64,000 nt of DNA from Candidatus Eremiobacterota bacterium (GTDB taxonomy: Bacteria; Vulcanimicrobiota; Vulcanimicrobiia; Vulcanimicrobiales; Vulcanimicrobiaceae). Below are positions 44,122-51,256 of the stretch, one piece after another; position 1 is the stretch's first letter, and each line of letters starts with the position of its first letter. The stretch is taken from positions 1,275,300 through 1,339,299 of the forward strand of contig JAFAYE010000001.1 in the NCBI GenBank assembly GCA_019240525.1, written 5' to 3'. The notes under the pieces were generated by a model. That model was not told where the DNA came from, made no database searches, and saw nothing but the letters and a program-made list of their open reading frames with translations. A program made the translations under genes and the position numbers.

Positions 44122-45015
44122 GATCGATTTCCCCAGCGCCGAACCGATCAGGCCGACGGCGAGTGTCGCGGTTTGATTGCGATGGTCGAGGATTGGGTTG
44201 ATCTCCACCATCTCGATCGAACCGAGCTGACCGCTGTCGTACAGCATCTCCATCACTAAGTGCGCTTCGCGATAGCTCAAGCCGCCCTTGACGGGCGTTC
44301 CCGTTCCCGGCGCTTCGCTCGGATCGATTGCATCCATATCGAACGAGACGTGAATCGGAGAGTTCTGCGCACCGGCAATCGCTCGAGCCTCTTCCATCAC
44401 GTGCACCATGCCGAGCTTGTCGACGTCCGTCATCGAGAACGCCTTCACGCCGAACTCGCGCAGCAGACGCTTCTCGTTCGGGTCGACGTCGCGCAACCCG
44501 ATTTGCACGGTGCGCGCCGAATCGGCAACTCCCTGGCTCAATGCAAAGTAGAGGGGCATGCCGTGGACGTTGCCCGTGGGTGAGCTCGCGGGACTGTTGA
44601 TGTCGGCGTGCGCGTCGATCCACACCAGACCGGGTGGAGAACCTCGTGCGCGAGTCAGGCCCTCGAGCGTGCCGACGGCAATTGAGTGATCGCCACCCAA
44701 CACGATGGGCAGACCGCCGGCGCGCACGGCATCCTCGACGACGCGCGCCAACTCGCTGCAAACGCCGGTAATGACGTTGAGAAACTTTGCGGAGGCATCC
44801 TGCGCATCGGCCGATTCGCGAATCGGAACCTCAAGGTTTCCCCAGTCGACGATTTTCGGAATGCCGAGGCGACCTAATGCTTCGTGAAGCTTTGCGTAGC
44901 GTACGGCCGACGGTCCCATGTCGACGCCGCGGCGGCTAGCGCCAAGGTCCATCGGGACGCCGGCGATATCGACGCGCGGAACTGGCGAACGCGCGCCGCT
45001 GATAATCGAGCTCAC
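44116..45015 (-). CDS. rocF: Arginase
   Basis: A ureohydrolase of 299 residues that splits arginine to ornithine and urea with a binuclear manganese centre. Metal ligands lie in LGGDHSIAVGT, WIDAHADINSPASS and SFDMDAIDPSEAPGTG; GNVHGMPLYFAL and the C-terminal VEINPILD are conserved. The NVHGMP loop favours arginase over agmatinase. GTG start at 45015 overlaps the stop of the upstream permease gene (GTGA), so the two form an operon. Confidence 0.93.
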   Translation of the reverse strand: MSSIISGARSPVPRVDIAGVPMDLGASRRGVDMGPSAVRYAKLHEALGRLGIPKIVDWGNLEVPIRESADAQDASAKFLNVITGVCSELARVVEDAVRAGGLPIVLGGDHSIAVGTLEGLTRARGSPPGLVWIDAHADINSPASSPTGNVHGMPLYFALSQGVADSARTVQIGLRDVDPNEKRLLREFGVKAFSMTDVDKLGMVHVMEEARAIAGAQNSPIHVSFDMDAIDPSEAPGTGTPVKGGLSYREAHLVMEMLYDSGQLGSIEMVEINPILDHRNQTATLAVGLIGSALGKSIL

Positions 45016-46115
45016 GATGGCGGAGGCTTCGATTTTGCCGCTTCCAGCACCCGCGTTGCGACGACGCGCACGACTCCGGCGACCGGCACGGCGATGAGCA
45101 TGCCGAAGAGGCCCGCAACCTCGGCGCCGATCAACAGCGCGACGAGAACGATGAAAGCACTCAGCTTGACTTGCTTGCCGACCACATTGGGTGCGATGAA
45201 ATGGCCTTCCATTTCATAAATCGCAACGAAAGCAACGGTCACGAGCCCAGCGTTAATCCAACCGTTCGTGATCACGGCCGAAAAGAAAGCGGGGAAAAAG
45301 GCCGCGACGGCGCCGACGTACGGGATCAGGTCGCCGATACCGGCGAGCAGGCCGAATAAATACGGATACGGCACGTGCAACAACATCATCGCGATCGTGA
45401 TCATGATCGCGACCGTGGCGGCAACGAGGAGCTGCCCGCGAATGAAGCCGCCGATCACGCCGTCGATGTCGGAGAACAACTCCAGCGTTGCGCGCCAGCG
45501 GTCTTCGGGAACGATCGAAGCGAGACTTCGCTTCATGTGATCCAGATCGAGCAGCAGATACGCCGTCACGACCGGCACGACGACGAAAACCGCGAGGACC
45601 GCGACCGTTCCTGCCAAGACCGTTGCGAACTGCCCGAAGGCCTGAAGGCCGCGGATCTTGAGCCACGTTGTCACCGCATCCGGTAAGCCGGCGATCTGAT
45701 CTTGAAGCCAGCTCGGCAGATGTGAAGTCAGCGGATCTTTCGGATTGTAGACGATCGAATGAAGCCGGTTGACGAGATCGGGATACCGCCGGATGACGAG
45801 CTGGGAGTCCTCCATGACGTGCGGGACGATGAAGAGAGCCAGGATCACGAGAGCCGCGATCATTGCCAGATAGACGAGTGCGATCGCGAGCACGAGCGGC
45901 ATGCGCCGCGCAAGCCGGTGCACTGCCGGATAGATGACGTACGCTAGGAAAACAGCGCCGACCAGGATGTAGACCACGCCCCTGATGCGAGTGAGGATCT
46001 CGATGACGAACGCACCGACGTAGAACGCCAGCACCAACACCATCAAAATCTTGAGCGCATAGGTCACGCGCCGGTCGGTCAGCCACCGCCAAGGATTGCG
46101 GCGTGTCCCCCTCAT
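45012..46115 (-). CDS. AI-2E family (PerM/YdiK-like) permease
   Basis: A 367-residue protein with about eight membrane helices. ITIAMMLLHVPYPYLFGLLAGIGDLIPYVG covers the family's typical P-Y-x-G region, here readable as LAGIGDLIPYVGAV, and EGHFIAPNVVGKQVKLSAF is the conserved C-terminal block. Members export autoinducer-2 in some bacteria or act as Na/H or other antiporters; substrate here is unknown. ATG 46115 was chosen over a longer frame that starts inside a repeat. The repeat at 46120-46173 lies immediately upstream. Confidence 0.86.
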   Translation of the reverse strand: MRGTRRNPWRWLTDRRVTYALKILMVLVLAFYVGAFVIEILTRIRGVVYILVGAVFLAYVIYPAVHRLARRMPLVLAIALVYLAMIAALVILALFIVPHVMEDSQLVIRRYPDLVNRLHSIVYNPKDPLTSHLPSWLQDQIAGLPDAVTTWLKIRGLQAFGQFATVLAGTVAVLAVFVVVPVVTAYLLLDLDHMKRSLASIVPEDRWRATLELFSDIDGVIGGFIRGQLLVAATVAIMITIAMMLLHVPYPYLFGLLAGIGDLIPYVGAVAAFFPAFFSAVITNGWINAGLVTVAFVAIYEMEGHFIAPNVVGKQVKLSAFIVLVALLIGAEVAGLFGMLIAVPVAGVVRVVATRVLEAAKSKPPPS

Positions 46116-46119
46116 ATCG

Positions 46120-46173
46120 GCGCGCTTCACCGTGGGGTTAAGCAAGCCTCCGTGCAGAGGACGCAAAGCAGGA
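46120..46173 (+). repeat. 54-bp direct repeat, left copy
   Basis: This copy begins GCGCGCTTCACCGTGGGG and ends ACGCAAAGCAGGA. It is identical to 50126-50178 except for one extra T, and both copies have the same orientation 4,006 bp apart. It contains CCTC-CGTGCA-GAGG, a perfect 4-bp stem flanked by GCAAG and ACGCAAAGC. It lies 4 bp upstream of the permease ATG on the other strand. It may be an attachment or recombination site, or part of a structured RNA leader. Confidence 0.9.
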
Positions 46174-46706
46174 CACCAACTTGAGCCTCGCGCCCGCCAA
46201 ATCGGAACCGATTATCCTCGCCAATGCTAATTTCGGGAAAGCGATGGCGTTGCCGACACAAAGTGGCGCCGCAGACCCAGCGTGTTTCTTTTCCCCGGGA
46301 ATGCGTACTCGCACGCGCGCTCGACTGTCGAATCTATGAAGAACGCCTGATCGATCCGTTTAGTCAAAGCCGCATCATTGCGGTTGCTCAAATTGGCAAC
46401 GCATTCGCCAAGGTGCGTACCAATCGTCACGCCCCAGTGAAGCATGATCCGCCACGGGCGAATTCGCACGCAAGATTGCGCTTAGCGCCCTACGAGGGGC
46501 CAGCGCGAGTGCGAATGCATCGGATGTCGCCGCACGACGCCGACGCCGCCAGGTCGCGCTTTCGGGGCCGCCAGTAAATAGCAGCTTCCTTACTCGTATA
46601 ATCCTGGGTCAAGAATATCCGAATCGCGACGGGCGCGAAATGGCGACAACTGCACTCGGTATAATGCACGTGACTGATGGCACCGCCAGCTCACCGTAAC
46701 TGTTAC
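46174..46706. other. Island spacer of 530 bp without a supported gene
   Basis: Short frames exist on both strands (for example plus 46224-46577 and minus 46227-46469) but neither has a ribosome binding site, recognisable motif or convincing codon use. Two perfect TATAAT hexamers occur on the plus strand at 46597-46602 and 46660-46665, each preceded by ACTCG, without a good -35 box. They could be the -10 boxes of a small RNA or antisense transcript reading into the lipoprotein gene. Otherwise nothing is seen; remnant coding sequence is possible. Confidence 0.45.
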
Positions 46707-47738
46707 TTACGGGTGTTGTTCTTTTTGAGCGAGACTTACTACGACGCCCAAATCGGCCCCGACAGCTTTTTTGATTTTCTTGGTGTACGCGCCGCCGGCC
46801 GGATAATCATAAAACAGCACGTCGGAGTAATCGCACGAATCGCCACAGATATTCGGAAGGATCACGGTTCTGCCTTGAATCCAGGTCTGGTGAAGTTCAC
46901 CAGCACCATCGAGCTCGGTGGACCCAACTTCTGCTGCTTGACTTCCTTTTACCGCGAACTGATAAATAAACGGTGCGCCTTGGTCCTGAACCGTCACGTG
47001 CTTACCATCCCACTGAACTTCGCCCGGCCACTGAATAACCTGGTCTAAGGCGATCGTCTTAAGTTGGCTGCCACCTTTGGGTAGTTCCGCCAACACAACG
47101 TGTCCGCTGCCAGGGCTGCTTTGTCCGTCGATGAAAAGGTTCCCCTTATCGTCGTAGCCGCAAAAGTAGTACTCGTAAAAGGAAGGGTCTTCGAAATACG
47201 TGGGTTTACCCCGCGCTTTTTTAAAGATAGCCACACCTCCAAGAGACGGGTTATGACTTCCCGCGACAGCCAGGTTCCCGCTAGCTGAATCGACCGAACA
47301 CCCTATCGCGCCTTTTGGAACGGATAACTCCTTCGTGCGTCTGCTGACGCCGTGCGCGTACTCAAAGACCGTCCCATATCCCAAATTTACGATGTAGACG
47401 TCACCGATTTTGTCGACGCATGCATCGTCGGCCAGCGAAAAATGGCGGAGTTTTCCTTCTAGCCTCCCGTTCGGATACGAGTATACGCTAACGTAAGTGT
47501 CATCGAGGACGTAAAGAAGATCCTGTCCGACAGCATTGGGAGACATCCACGAGTTGGTGGGACTCGCTGTGCGTCGAGCTGGCAAGCCGACCCGTTGAGA
47601 GTCCGACGGTCGGCTAAGTACTCTTGTCTCGCTCGTCACTCCGGGGGAAAGCAAGGGCAACTGTGAACCGCAGGCACTCGCAATGATAGCAGCAGCGCAA
47701 GCGCAAAGAGCGACAGGCGCGACAGCCCAACGCGTCAT
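46707..47738 (-). CDS. Putative lipoprotein with beta-propeller-like repeats
   Basis: A protein of 343 residues. The N-terminal hydrophobic stretch ends in IIASACGSQ, an acceptable lipobox, so membrane anchoring outside the cytoplasm is likely. The mature part has repeated strands such as LLYVLDDTYVSVYSYPNG, GDVYIVNLGYGTVFEY, AVAGSHNPSLGGVAIF and GNLFIDGQSS, which resemble NHL/YVTN-type beta-propeller blades with V-Y/F-x-Y and Asp-Gly turns. Function unknown; such proteins bind ligands or partners. The start has AGGAG about 9 nt upstream. Base use is more A/T-rich than in flanking genes, consistent with acquisition with the island. Confidence 0.7.
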   Translation of the reverse strand: MTRWAVAPVALCACAAAIIASACGSQLPLLSPGVTSETRVLSRPSDSQRVGLPARRTASPTNSWMSPNAVGQDLLYVLDDTYVSVYSYPNGRLEGKLRHFSLADDACVDKIGDVYIVNLGYGTVFEYAHGVSRRTKELSVPKGAIGCSVDSASGNLAVAGSHNPSLGGVAIFKKARGKPTYFEDPSFYEYYFCGYDDKGNLFIDGQSSPGSGHVVLAELPKGGSQLKTIALDQVIQWPGEVQWDGKHVTVQDQGAPFIYQFAVKGSQAAEVGSTELDGAGELHQTWIQGRTVILPNICGDSCDYSDVLFYDYPAGGAYTKKIKKAVGADLGVVVSLAQKEQHP

Positions 47739-48168
47739 GCCTTGGCTCCTCGTGCGCCGCCAATGACTGCCGCCTGATACGGCCCGCCAGCAATTCGCTT
47801 CAAAACGCGCATTCTTAAATCATTCGCGATCTTCAAAGCCACTGACGGGTGACGACCGCTCGCATGGGACATTCTGCGCTTTCCGATTAAATTTTCCTCT
47901 TTGAGACGAGGGCGGCCCTATGGTGTTAAGGCTTTCAAAAGGGCTTGTGAGGAGCGAGCGCCGTTGAACCTGTGCGCGAAGCCACTTGCAATTGCGTAGA
48001 GCGACCACTACGATTATTTGAGCCGTTGCGCTTTGCAAGAACGAACTCGGCGCCAGCCCGCTCGAAGGTATAAACTTCCTCCTGCTGGGTTCAGCGAGAC
48101 TGTTCTGCTGTGGAGTGGGCCGTTCATGGCTTCGCTAACACGAAACACTCGACGAAAGGAAGCAAACA
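47739..48168. other. Divergent intergenic region of 430 bp in the island
   Basis: This lies between the lipoprotein (minus) and the beta-helix gene (plus) and must carry both promoters. A candidate sigma70 promoter for the plus gene is given separately. A stem such as AGCCACTGACGGG has no clean partner and no known riboswitch motif was recognised. The last bases (AAAGGAAG before ATG 48169) are a good ribosome binding site. Confidence 0.5.
47986..48014 (+). promoter_or_regulatory. Candidate sigma70 promoter upstream of the beta-helix gene
   Basis: TTGCAA (47986-47991) and TACGAT (48009-48014) are separated by exactly 17 bp, each matching four of six consensus bases. A transcript would start near 48021 and have a leader of about 150 nt. 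TATAAA at about 48068 is another A/T-rich element without a good -35 at proper distance. Pattern only; no experimental support. Confidence 0.3.
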
Positions 48169-49377
48169 ATGGCATCCCCTCCTTTTAATGGCGTCTTCAA
48201 TGTAACAGAGCCGATCGACGCGTCCGAAAAGATCGTTTACGCGGGTCAAGACGCTGGCACAAACACTGACAATTTAAGATACTTCATCAGCAAATTGTTA
48301 AGTACTGATGGCCCAACTCAAGGTCAAGGCGGTACGCTGCAATTCCCATCCAACGGCACACTGCCCTACCAGTTTTCAGGCACTATTACGATCGGGCCTG
48401 ACGACGAGTCTCCGCCTGCGGTGCAGCCGTGGTCTATCATACTCGTTGGCACAGGGCAGGGCCAGATAAACATACCGCTGTTGCAGCAAACCGTAAACGA
48501 GGATCTGTTCGTTGTTGAAAATGTCACTTCAGTCGGTTCCGCCGACATCGGAGGAGTCGTTTTTCAAGACCTAATGATCGGTTACAGCGAATCAACGGGC
48601 CAAAACGCCGCGATTCACGTGGAGGGCGTTGTCGACGGTGGCGCGAGCCAAAACGTCCGTCTGCTCCGAGTGACCGTTGTTAATTTTCCGATTGGCGTTT
48701 GGTTTGAAAACTCGTTAGGGTGCAGCATGATTGATTGTAATGTCTTTAATGGCAGCACTGCGGGAACGGCGCTCCAGATCGGCTCCTTTGACCCATCACC
48801 TGGTACCCTGCAGTCAGGCATAGAGACATACATTGCCGGCTGCTATTTCGAATGCGCTGGGGACGAAATCGGGACCGGAGTCGCTGTGCAGATCTATGGC
48901 TGCGAACACTTGCGAATGATCAACACGCGTCTAGATTCGTACGGCGAAGGAATCGTCATCACGGCCGGTGCCCAGCCCGAGAACACTGCGGCCAACATTA
49001 GAAAGCTTTATTTTGGCAACGTTAGCTGCTACCCATACGACACGGGAGCGGCACTGGTGATCGAATCGGGTAGCTCGGCAGCCCCTGTGACCGAGGTTTT
49101 CTTCGCAAATTGCGAATTTGCGCCGGCCAAGTCAACCACTACCTACACGGGTGCTGGGATTGTGATTCAGCCGGGCAGCACGGGACCAATTAACCAAATC
49201 CGCTTCGTAGACTGCTATTGCTGCTTCTGGACAGGTCCTGGCATGCAGATCGCAGGCGGGAAGAACATCGAGGTCCTCGGTGGCTACTACTCCTGCAATC
49301 GTGCTTCAGCGGGATCAGAGCCGTACTCACAAAGTGCATCGCGATCACGGGCACAGTGGACGGATTGCGAATCATAG
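48169..49377 (+). CDS. Right-handed beta-helix protein, N-terminal part before a frameshift
   Basis: The frame encodes 402 residues starting MASPPFNGVFNVTE with AAAGGAAG 6 nt upstream. There is no signal peptide. After an Asn/Gly-rich beginning (TNTDNLRYFISKLL, GGTLQFPSNGTLPY) come repeating rungs such as VRLLRVTVVNFPIGVWFENS, CSMIDCNVFNGS, YIAGCYFECAG and EVFFANCEFAP, typical of pectate-lyase/tailspike-like beta-helices. The reading becomes unlike the family after GGYYSCN (about residue 382), where the other frame takes over. This may be a phage tailspike relative or extracellular polysaccharide-binding protein. Confidence 0.7.
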   Translation: MASPPFNGVFNVTEPIDASEKIVYAGQDAGTNTDNLRYFISKLLSTDGPTQGQGGTLQFPSNGTLPYQFSGTITIGPDDESPPAVQPWSIILVGTGQGQINIPLLQQTVNEDLFVVENVTSVGSADIGGVVFQDLMIGYSESTGQNAAIHVEGVVDGGASQNVRLLRVTVVNFPIGVWFENSLGCSMIDCNVFNGSTAGTALQIGSFDPSPGTLQSGIETYIAGCYFECAGDEIGTGVAVQIYGCEHLRMINTRLDSYGEGIVITAGAQPENTAANIRKLYFGNVSCYPYDTGAALVIESGSSAAPVTEVFFANCEFAPAKSTTTYTGAGIVIQPGSTGPINQIRFVDCYCCFWTGPGMQIAGGKNIEVLGGYYSCNRASAGSEPYSQSASRSRAQWTDCES

Positions 49378-49895
49378 GAGTTGCCTGCAACAACTCGGCT
49401 TACAATCTCGACTCAATTCCGCCCGGTTTTCAAACGCCGACCCAATTGTACGGAATTTTTGTGGGTTATGGTGCCGAAAGTGTACGCGCCCTCAGCTGCG
49501 ACCTTACCGGTAACCTCGAGAACGGAGCCGTAATCACAGGTAGTCCGGAACCGTCAAACATTTTCTTTAAGCACTGCGACTTCACGGGTATCACGTCGCC
49601 TGTTAGCGTTCCCACTTCTGTTTCGAATCTGCAAATAACTGATTGCCCCGGATATAACGACCAAGGAACTCCGGTCACGACATCGGTGCCGTCAAGCCCG
49701 TTCAGCGCTGCGAGCTTAGGTTATTATGGCCCGGCGACGTTCTACGCAACGGGTTCGTCGGCACTAACGCTGCGTATCGCAGGCACTGTCGTACCGCTAA
49801 GCAACGGTACCTTTGTGTTACCTCCGGGCGTCGAGGCCACAGCCGTCGTCTTAGGCAGCCACGGTTGGTCCAGTTTCCTGATGATCGGACAATAA
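49218..49895 (+). pseudogene. Beta-helix protein, C-terminal part in a shifted frame
   Basis: From about 49300 to the TAA at 49893 this frame continues the same beta-helix: AITGTVDGLRIIGVACNNSA, SVRALSCDLTGNLENGAVI, NIFFKHCDFTGI and LQITDCPGYND, ending in a compact strand-rich tail (VLGSHGWSSFLMIGQ). The first ~35 codons from ATG 49218 read out of frame with the upstream gene and look artificial. One missing base near 49290-49330 would join both parts into a protein of about 575 residues. No slippery heptamer is evident, so mutation or sequencing error is likelier than programmed frameshifting. Confidence 0.65.
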
Positions 49896-49937
49896 AAACA
49901 AGATACGGAGCTACCCCATTTGATAGATAGCGAAGAC

Positions 49938-49994
49938 AAGCGAGGGAAGAGTACAATCGAGGGAAGTGATAAGTAAGCTTCCCTCGCTTATTTT
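49938..49994 (+). terminator. Rho-independent terminator with two competing 5' arms
   Basis: AAGCGAGGGAAG (49938-49949) pairs perfectly over 12 bp with CTTCCCTCGCTT (49978-49989), followed by ATTTT. A second copy of the 5' arm, CGAGGGAAG (49958-49966), can pair over 9 bp with the same 3' arm around an 11-nt loop. The structure ends the beta-helix transcript, 43 bp after its stop codon. Confidence 0.85.
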
Positions 49995-50125
49995 GATCGA
50001 CACCTTCGCAATCGAGCCACGAGAAGTAGCTGGCGTGAGCGTACCACCAACCCCGTCTAGCATGCAATGATCGCGTTTCTTTTGGCGGAAGTGCCAGCTA
50101 TTCGTCGCCCCGCTCGACGTATACA

Positions 50126-50178
50126 GCGCGCTTCACCGTGGGGTTAAGCAAGCCCCGTGCAGAGGACGCAAAGCAGGA
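50126..50178 (+). repeat. 53-bp direct repeat, right copy
   Basis: Same orientation as the copy at 46120-46173, 53 of 54 positions kept with one T missing in CC-CCGTGC. The missing T weakens the CCTC/GAGG stem seen in the left copy but creates GGGG/CCCC pairing in CGTGGGG-(9 nt)-CCCCGTG. It is followed, after about 30 bp, by the hydrolase gene. GTG 50138 within the repeat opens the same frame, showing that part of it could be translated. Confidence 0.9.
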
Positions 50179-50209: not shown

Positions 50210-51256
50210 ATGATGGCGCGCGCGGCGTCGGTGTTGGCGTTTGTTCTTTGCGTAGGCATCGCGTCGGCCGCACCGGCACGAGCATTTCTTCCGCCGCCGC
50301 TGGCAAACCTCAATCACGACGTTCGGGCGCTCGCACAACGCCTGCCGGCGGCGACCGCACTCGACGTCCTCGATCTGAATACGGGCTACAACGCGGGCTT
50401 CAATGCGGCGAAGAGCATGCCGGCTGCATCGACGATCAAACTTCCGGTGATGGTCGAAGTGTTCACGCAGCTTGCGGCCGGCAACTTCGACTTGCAGCGC
50501 CGTGTCATGCTGCGACCCGCCGACAAAGATTACGGATCGGGCGTGCTCTGCGACGCGCCGGCCGGCTCGACTTTTCCGATTTCGGAACTGGTCGAGAAGA
50601 TGATCGACATCAGCGACAACACCGCGACGAACATGCTTATCCGCCTGGTGGGGCGGCACAACATCAACCGGGACATGGAAGTACTCGGGCTGGACCGGAC
50701 GCATCTCACCGGTGACGTGCGCACGGCGGGCTGGTCGATCCGCGACGCGCTGCGCACATCGCCTGCCGATCTCGTACGTCTGCTCTCGCTGATGGCACGC
50801 CGCGAGCTCGTCGACCAGTGGTCTTCAAACGCAATGATCGACATTCTGGAAGCCGATCGTATCAACACGTTGCTGCCCGCACCGTTGCCCCAAGACGTTC
50901 CCATTGCCCACAAGACCGGATCGCTCAACGACACGCTCAACGATGCGGGGATCGTCTTTGCGAACGATGCGCCCTACGTCATTGCAGTGATGACGACGGC
51001 ATTGCCCTCCAAGGCCTTGGGCCGCGCCTTCATCCATTCGATCTCGCGGCTCACCTATTCCGACGAGTTGCGTCTGGCGCGCTGGCGAGAAGCCAACGGC
51101 ATTATCCAAACCGGTGGCGTTGAATCACCCGATGCCGGATATTGGAGTCAACAACCGCCGAGCGCGCAAACGCCCGATGCCGGCGCTCCCGCCGGCGACG
51201 ACGCCGTTCCCGCCGATGCGCCGACCTCGCCGCCGGCGCCAGCGCCTACACCTTGA
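50210..51256 (+). CDS. Serine hydrolase of the class A beta-lactamase/PBP fold
   Basis: An exported protein of 348 residues: a signal peptide (SVLAFVLCVGIASAAPARA), then a catalytic domain with SxxK (STIKLPVM), SDN (DISDNTATN) and KTG (AHKTGSLND), and a C-terminal Pro/Ala-rich tail of about 45 residues. The ExxLN glutamate that deacylates beta-lactams in true class A enzymes is not evident in its expected region (around TAGWSIRDALRTS), so it may be a peptidase, esterase or weak beta-lactamase. ATG 50210 or 50213 are equal choices. The preceding repeat may form part of its leader. Overlaps ilvE by 11 bp, convergent. Confidence 0.82.
   Translation: MMARAASVLAFVLCVGIASAAPARAFLPPPLANLNHDVRALAQRLPAATALDVLDLNTGYNAGFNAAKSMPAASTIKLPVMVEVFTQLAAGNFDLQRRVMLRPADKDYGSGVLCDAPAGSTFPISELVEKMIDISDNTATNMLIRLVGRHNINRDMEVLGLDRTHLTGDVRTAGWSIRDALRTSPADLVRLLSLMARRELVDQWSSNAMIDILEADRINTLLPAPLPQDVPIAHKTGSLNDTLNDAGIVFANDAPYVIAVMTTALPSKALGRAFIHSISRLTYSDELRLARWREANGIIQTGGVESPDAGYWSQQPPSAQTPDAGAPAGDDAVPADAPTSPPAPAPTP

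Follow-up and report, generated by a model that had tools for sequence, protein, structure and literature searches.

Duplication of a native divergent promoter region around a probable surface-gene fragment in a Candidatus Eremiobacterota chromosome

The intergenic region shared by a permease gene and a beta-lactamase-like gene in a Candidatus Eremiobacterota chromosome is interrupted by 3,952 bp of AT-richer DNA, held between two near-identical copies of a 54-bp sequence. Comparison across 18 genomes of the genus, the source genome included, leaves almost no doubt that the DNA is a lineage-specific insertion and that its arrival duplicated the target, a native divergent promoter region. The window analysed is a stretch of 64,000 nucleotides (G000:C1:1275300-1339299) from the source genome, G000, which comprises 2.81 Mb in 5 contigs; the contig with the insert is 2.79 Mb long. 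The insert is known from this one genome, which may be a MAG. Its components and neighbours are, in window coordinates:

45012-46115, minus strand: AI-2E family permease, left native neighbour (Pfam AI-2E_transport, 6e-55)
46120-46173, no strand: 54-bp repeat, the left-hand copy of the native intergenic region; empty sites contain a single homologue
46174-46645, minus strand: glycosyltransferase pseudogene remnant, the N-terminal ~175 aa of ~1,160 aa, with stops and frameshifts
46707-47738, minus strand: intact lipoprotein, a six-bladed NHL-type beta-propeller with signal peptide and lipobox-like Cys23
48169-49895, plus strand: frameshifted right-handed beta-helix gene, a 402-aa frame followed by a second frame
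49933-49994, no strand: inverted repeat followed by a T run in the sequence, the probable terminator of the helix gene
50126-50178, no strand: 53-bp repeat, the right-hand copy of the native intergenic region, sharing its GCCCCG with most relatives
50210-51256, plus strand: class A beta-lactamase-like enzyme (Beta-lactamase2; Pfam 1.5e-62), right native neighbour

The initial annotation had described two near-identical repeats in the same orientation at 46120-46173 and 50126-50178, and these coordinates proved exact. The copies are 98% identical and differ by one indel (GCCTCCGTG versus GCCCCGTG), leaving exact-match blocks of 29 and 24 bp; about 5e-8 pairs of matching 29-mers would be expected by chance in the window. 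Similarity is absent beyond the 54 bp at both edges, so that the boundaries are sharp and a longer, decayed duplication is ruled out. A search of the whole 2.8-Mb genome for further copies, as had been proposed, returned the two at the insert ends and no third, which excludes a common genomic repeat. Neither copy matches a known structured RNA leader in Rfam, even at E<=10. One string within it, GGACGCAAAGC, resembled a c-di-GMP-I riboswitch, a candidate rejected because Rfam has no match there. The promoter scan found no consensus in the repeat, and the terminator scan likewise gave no result bearing on it. The sole clear palindrome is GCTTCACC-GTGG-GGTTAAGC. Terminal inverted repeats are not significant, the best 20-nt match having 13 identities, a value reached in 38 of 300 shuffles.

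The different base use reported for the interior was borne out. The insert has a GC content of 0.544 versus a mean of 0.618 (SD 0.018) for 510 control windows of 4 kb from the same genome; it lies about 4 SD below that mean, and no control window is as low. The difference extends to third codon positions, with GC3 of 0.56-0.59 in the insert genes versus 0.74-0.77 in the flanking genes. That no recombinase is present also held: a whole-genome profile search placed no phage integrase (PF00589) within the window and found no resolvase (PF00239) anywhere in the genome. Pfam searches detected no transposase domain in the island genes, and the window contains no tRNA.

The main evidence for insertion comes from empty sites. 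Eight congeners (G001, G002, G004, G008, G011, G012, G015 and G017) have both flanking genes, and in all eight these are divergent, 85-92 bp apart and separated by one repeat homologue; this is the permease-repeat-hydrolase order predicted for the locus without the insert, with the single repeat copy that was to be looked for. Joining the flanks in the source genome around a single repeat gives a gap of 88-89 bp. The intergenic region of the congeners follows the repeat in alignment, with the clearest agreement at CAAGCGAGCCCCG and GCAGGAG, and is otherwise poorly conserved. With a single homologue in each empty site, the repeat is native sequence that gained its second copy with the arrival of the insert, and among the genomes compared this happened on the one branch only. 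It is the intergenic, and probably promoter, DNA of the permease and beta-lactamase-like genes and occurs nowhere else. The cargo swap at a fixed site that had been envisaged is not supported: the repeat is confined to this locus, and no other genome compared has cargo of this type at the orthologous position, let alone the same genes with both repeats.

The remaining nine congeners have no permease at the locus, and an arginase gene adjoins the beta-lactamase-like gene, which itself is found in 18/18 genomes of the genus. Its named relatives are from Candidatus Eremiobacterota MAGs whose isolate names are mostly soil and permafrost. In one of the arginase-type genomes, G005, a propeller gene lies beyond the far side of the arginase (L124, on G005:C13, 7342-8349); it adjoins the same conserved gene block at a different junction, and is the closest propeller relative (~47-49%). 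In other genera, a ~5-kb ABC nucleoside transporter operon separates the permease from the beta-lactamase-like gene (L281, L292), an arrangement lost in this genus. This operon has no similarity to the insert, which rules out an ancient shared locus.

Only the propeller lipoprotein is probably still functional among the cargo. The family has no Pfam match; its profile match is to the PknD propeller (2.9e-18), and an AlphaFold model (mean pLDDT 84) has 24 strands forming six four-stranded blades, with propellers as the best folds returned by Foldseek. The genes had been described as unlike the lineage, and the reverse is true: every genome of the genus has ~6-50 copies of the propeller family (32 in the source genome, 50 in G013), and it is nearly absent elsewhere in the bacterial family. 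The closest paralogues are 36-43% identical in the source genome and up to ~50% identical in congeners. Since paralogues average a GC content of 0.578, the insert is AT-rich in part because genes of this class tend to be.

The other two genes appear, from their reading frames, to be broken now. The beta-helix frame is disrupted at ~49300-49350, and relatives at two other loci (L112 and L157) have one unbroken frame of 582-605 aa. The long left spacer of the insert (46174-46645) is the decayed N-terminus of a glycosyltransferase, matching glycosyltransferases of congener G010 (L118, L119) with E values in the window down to 4.5e-16 in tblastx/tblastn searches. Intact relatives in that genome are ~1,160 aa long, have GT2, GT9, GT1/4 and methyltransferase domains, and adjoin propeller and helix genes. 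The same two loci pair a fused GT2-GT9-GT4-methyltransferase protein with a separate GT9 near these genes, and the region is a probable surface glycan cluster. Homology to the glycosyltransferase extends as far as the left repeat's inner boundary, where it ends, and the intact protein continues for ~980 aa past this point. A pseudogene cut at the repeat suggests that the insert is an arbitrary fragment and lacks the defined ends of a cassette; the truncation could also result from a later deletion that stopped at the repeat, or the gene may have been broken before transfer. We consider it quite probable that the insert is a foreign fragment of a variable cluster.

Related helix/propeller modules recur at other loci of the genus (in G000, G001, G005 and G015), and these sister modules at tRNA-Ser(TGA) are ordinary integrase islands. 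The G005 module has a GC content of ~0.55 in surroundings of ~0.64 and lies between tRNA-Ser(TGA) on one side and, on the other, a second copy (111 bp, 91%) of the tRNA 5' half with its upstream DNA. In the source genome, a module at 1736829-1742413 (L157) is bounded by 149-bp repeats ending in the tRNA-Ser core, and a row of four tRNA-Ser att remnants runs from 1683519 to 1742395. The G001 and G015 modules adjoin the same 39-nt core, in G015 at the one end that was observed. Next to this core, G013 has tyrosine integrases and the source genome a degenerate one. The anticodon-half core, TTTCAAGACCGCCGCATTCA, is a genus-wide island hot spot (L157, L226, L228, L112, L116, L232, L213 and L216). 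Carriage of the module by viruses is ruled against because the helix family was not found in IMG/VR and propeller genes occur there on a single contig (IMGVR_UViG_3300035704_000306); on this viral-called contig (L337, 2056-6594), propeller-type lipoprotein genes adjoin a tyrosine integrase.

These islands raise the possibility that the window insert is a non-autonomous genomic island mobilized in trans by a tyrosine recombinase, with the 53/54-bp repeats as attL and attR. Its module relatives are integrase cargo bounded by core duplicates, integrases sit beside that core, the viral-called contig pairs propeller genes with an integrase, and an intact phage-type integrase lies at 1645157 of the same genome. 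The core is, however, absent from the window, and the 54-bp site does not resemble tRNA-Ser; nor is it a conserved gene. It was used once and lacks cargo in every relative, while the left end of the insert cuts through a gene. We therefore regard this explanation as unlikely.

A scan of ~1.1 Mb (1.08 Mb) of the source genome for similar repeat-flanked structures found other direct repeats: coding duplications, a REP-like CCCTTCGACAGGCTCAGGGTGACA repeat, the tRNA-Ser att sites and one short intergenic pair that encloses no comparable cargo. Units of CCCTTCGACAGGCTCAGGGTGACA are repeated within the 5' ends of lipoprotein genes (L151, L153), and further repeats of 42 nt and 90 nt occur in L115 and L120. 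Another possible duplication-flanked insert was seen in L157 (14017-16410; G000:C1:1746017-1748410), where the 3' end of a gene is directly repeated (394 bp, 96%) on either side of 1.6 kb with a truncated peptidase-like fragment. Among ~80 propeller loci in the source genome and G013, clear non-coding, non-REP flanking direct repeats occur only at the window insert and at the tRNA-Ser att pair, so this is not the general way in which the propeller family spreads.

The insertion itself is clearly real: on this branch alone among the genomes compared, 3,952 bp entered the divergent intergenic region, ~88 bp long, that separates the permease and beta-lactamase-like genes, leaving a 53/54-bp duplicate on each side. 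We propose that a related bacterium, as yet unsampled, was the source, and that the DNA is an arbitrary piece of a variable cluster of surface genes for a glycosyltransferase, a propeller lipoprotein and a beta-helix protein. The fragment would have been taken up and then captured without a dedicated recombinase, most likely either by end joining at a staggered-end break followed by fill-in, or by replication template switching with a return 54 bp upstream of the exit point. Since the native region is only weakly conserved among congeners, copying of the host's own sequence accounts for a near-identical duplicate more simply than delivery by a donor. A host-made duplicate would cover the 98% identity, the sharp edges, the lack of terminal inverted repeats, the one-time use of the site and the end inside a gene. 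Ku is encoded in 10/10 good-quality genomes of the genus, the source genome included, and ComEC in 9/10, so that DNA uptake and end joining are possible, as a matter of capacity and not of demonstrated use. A stagger of 54 nt is long for end joining, and we know of no bacterial precedent. The carriage of module relatives by integrase islands also counts against recombinase-free capture, which we prefer to the alternatives but judge nearly balanced, tipping slightly towards doubt. The whole chain, a recent foreign surface-gene fragment captured without a dedicated recombinase and with target duplication, is put forward tentatively, on the doubtful side of even.

A second route would be Campbell-type homologous integration of a circle that bore the insert and one intergenic copy and had formed in a donor already holding the insert. 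It would yield the same architecture, the direct repeat having its homologue at a relative's target site, and 54 bp would suffice for RecA pairing, if inefficiently. Such a donor would need a near-identical intergenic region, that is, would have to be of the same species; neither it nor the source locus was found, and the first insertion is merely moved back by one step. Indeed, both this route and integration in trans call for a donor carrying the promoter of the same species, and we consider the circle, too, improbable. Transfer in trans or by homologous exchange had been suggested from the outset; positive evidence for either was not obtained, and the truncation of the glycosyltransferase pseudogene at the repeat argues for an arbitrary fragment. 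An assembly artefact, in which a contig of another strain was spliced at a shared k-mer, might be suspected from the possible MAG origin, a repeat length near common k-mer overlaps and the two broken genes, but is very improbable, given that the insert lies inside a 2.79-Mb contig, that 54 bp is spanned by ordinary reads and that copies differing by an indel are not an exact k-mer overlap.

The insert departs only modestly from known genomic islands. Like tRNA-targeted tyrosine-recombinase islands and their hitchers (cf. PMC11389934), to which the sister modules of this genus belong, it is AT-richer cargo between direct repeats with empty sites in relatives. It differs in that its target is a divergent promoter region that was not reused, in having no integrase inside or adjoining, and in a left end that cuts a pseudogene. 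Insertion sequences also duplicate their target on both sides, but have the transposase and terminal inverted repeats missing here, and the duplication is far above their usual length; a serine-recombinase element is at odds with the genome-wide absence of PF00239 matches. Transposed genes in Arabidopsis are flanked by target-homologous direct repeats, for which circle integration was proposed (Woodhouse et al. 2010, PMC2869330). They resemble our case in the direct duplication of a native target homologous to the unoccupied orthologous site and in the lack of transposon features; ours is bacterial, single and of foreign source, whereas theirs derive from paralogous parent loci. No parent locus was identified, the closest paralogues being only those at 36-43% identity in the source genome and up to ~50% in congeners. 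Homology-facilitated illegitimate recombination and transformation-made duplications (PMC3240628, PMC3784515), including one 3.3-kb pneumococcal duplication without flanking repeats, likewise involve capture or duplication without a dedicated recombinase; here the duplication is only 54 bp and one-sided donor homology cannot be shown.

The locus provides a clean, empty-site-proven case of variable surface genes entering the core chromosome in a soil phylum that has hardly been studied. With a 53/54-bp duplicate on each side, both neighbours kept their own upstream DNA, and the insertion may have been tolerated because each retains the whole repeat upstream; the case illustrates how promoter duplication can render insertion between two divergent genes harmless. 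It is conceivable, if quite speculative, that Eremiobacterota possess a recombinase-free and possibly Ku-dependent mode of capture that makes target duplications of tens of base pairs, by which surface-gene fragments would settle in divergent promoters without silencing the neighbours. The same survey marks the tRNA-Ser(TGA) hot spot as a place through which the helix/propeller module travels, and brings out a genus-restricted explosion of propeller lipoproteins.
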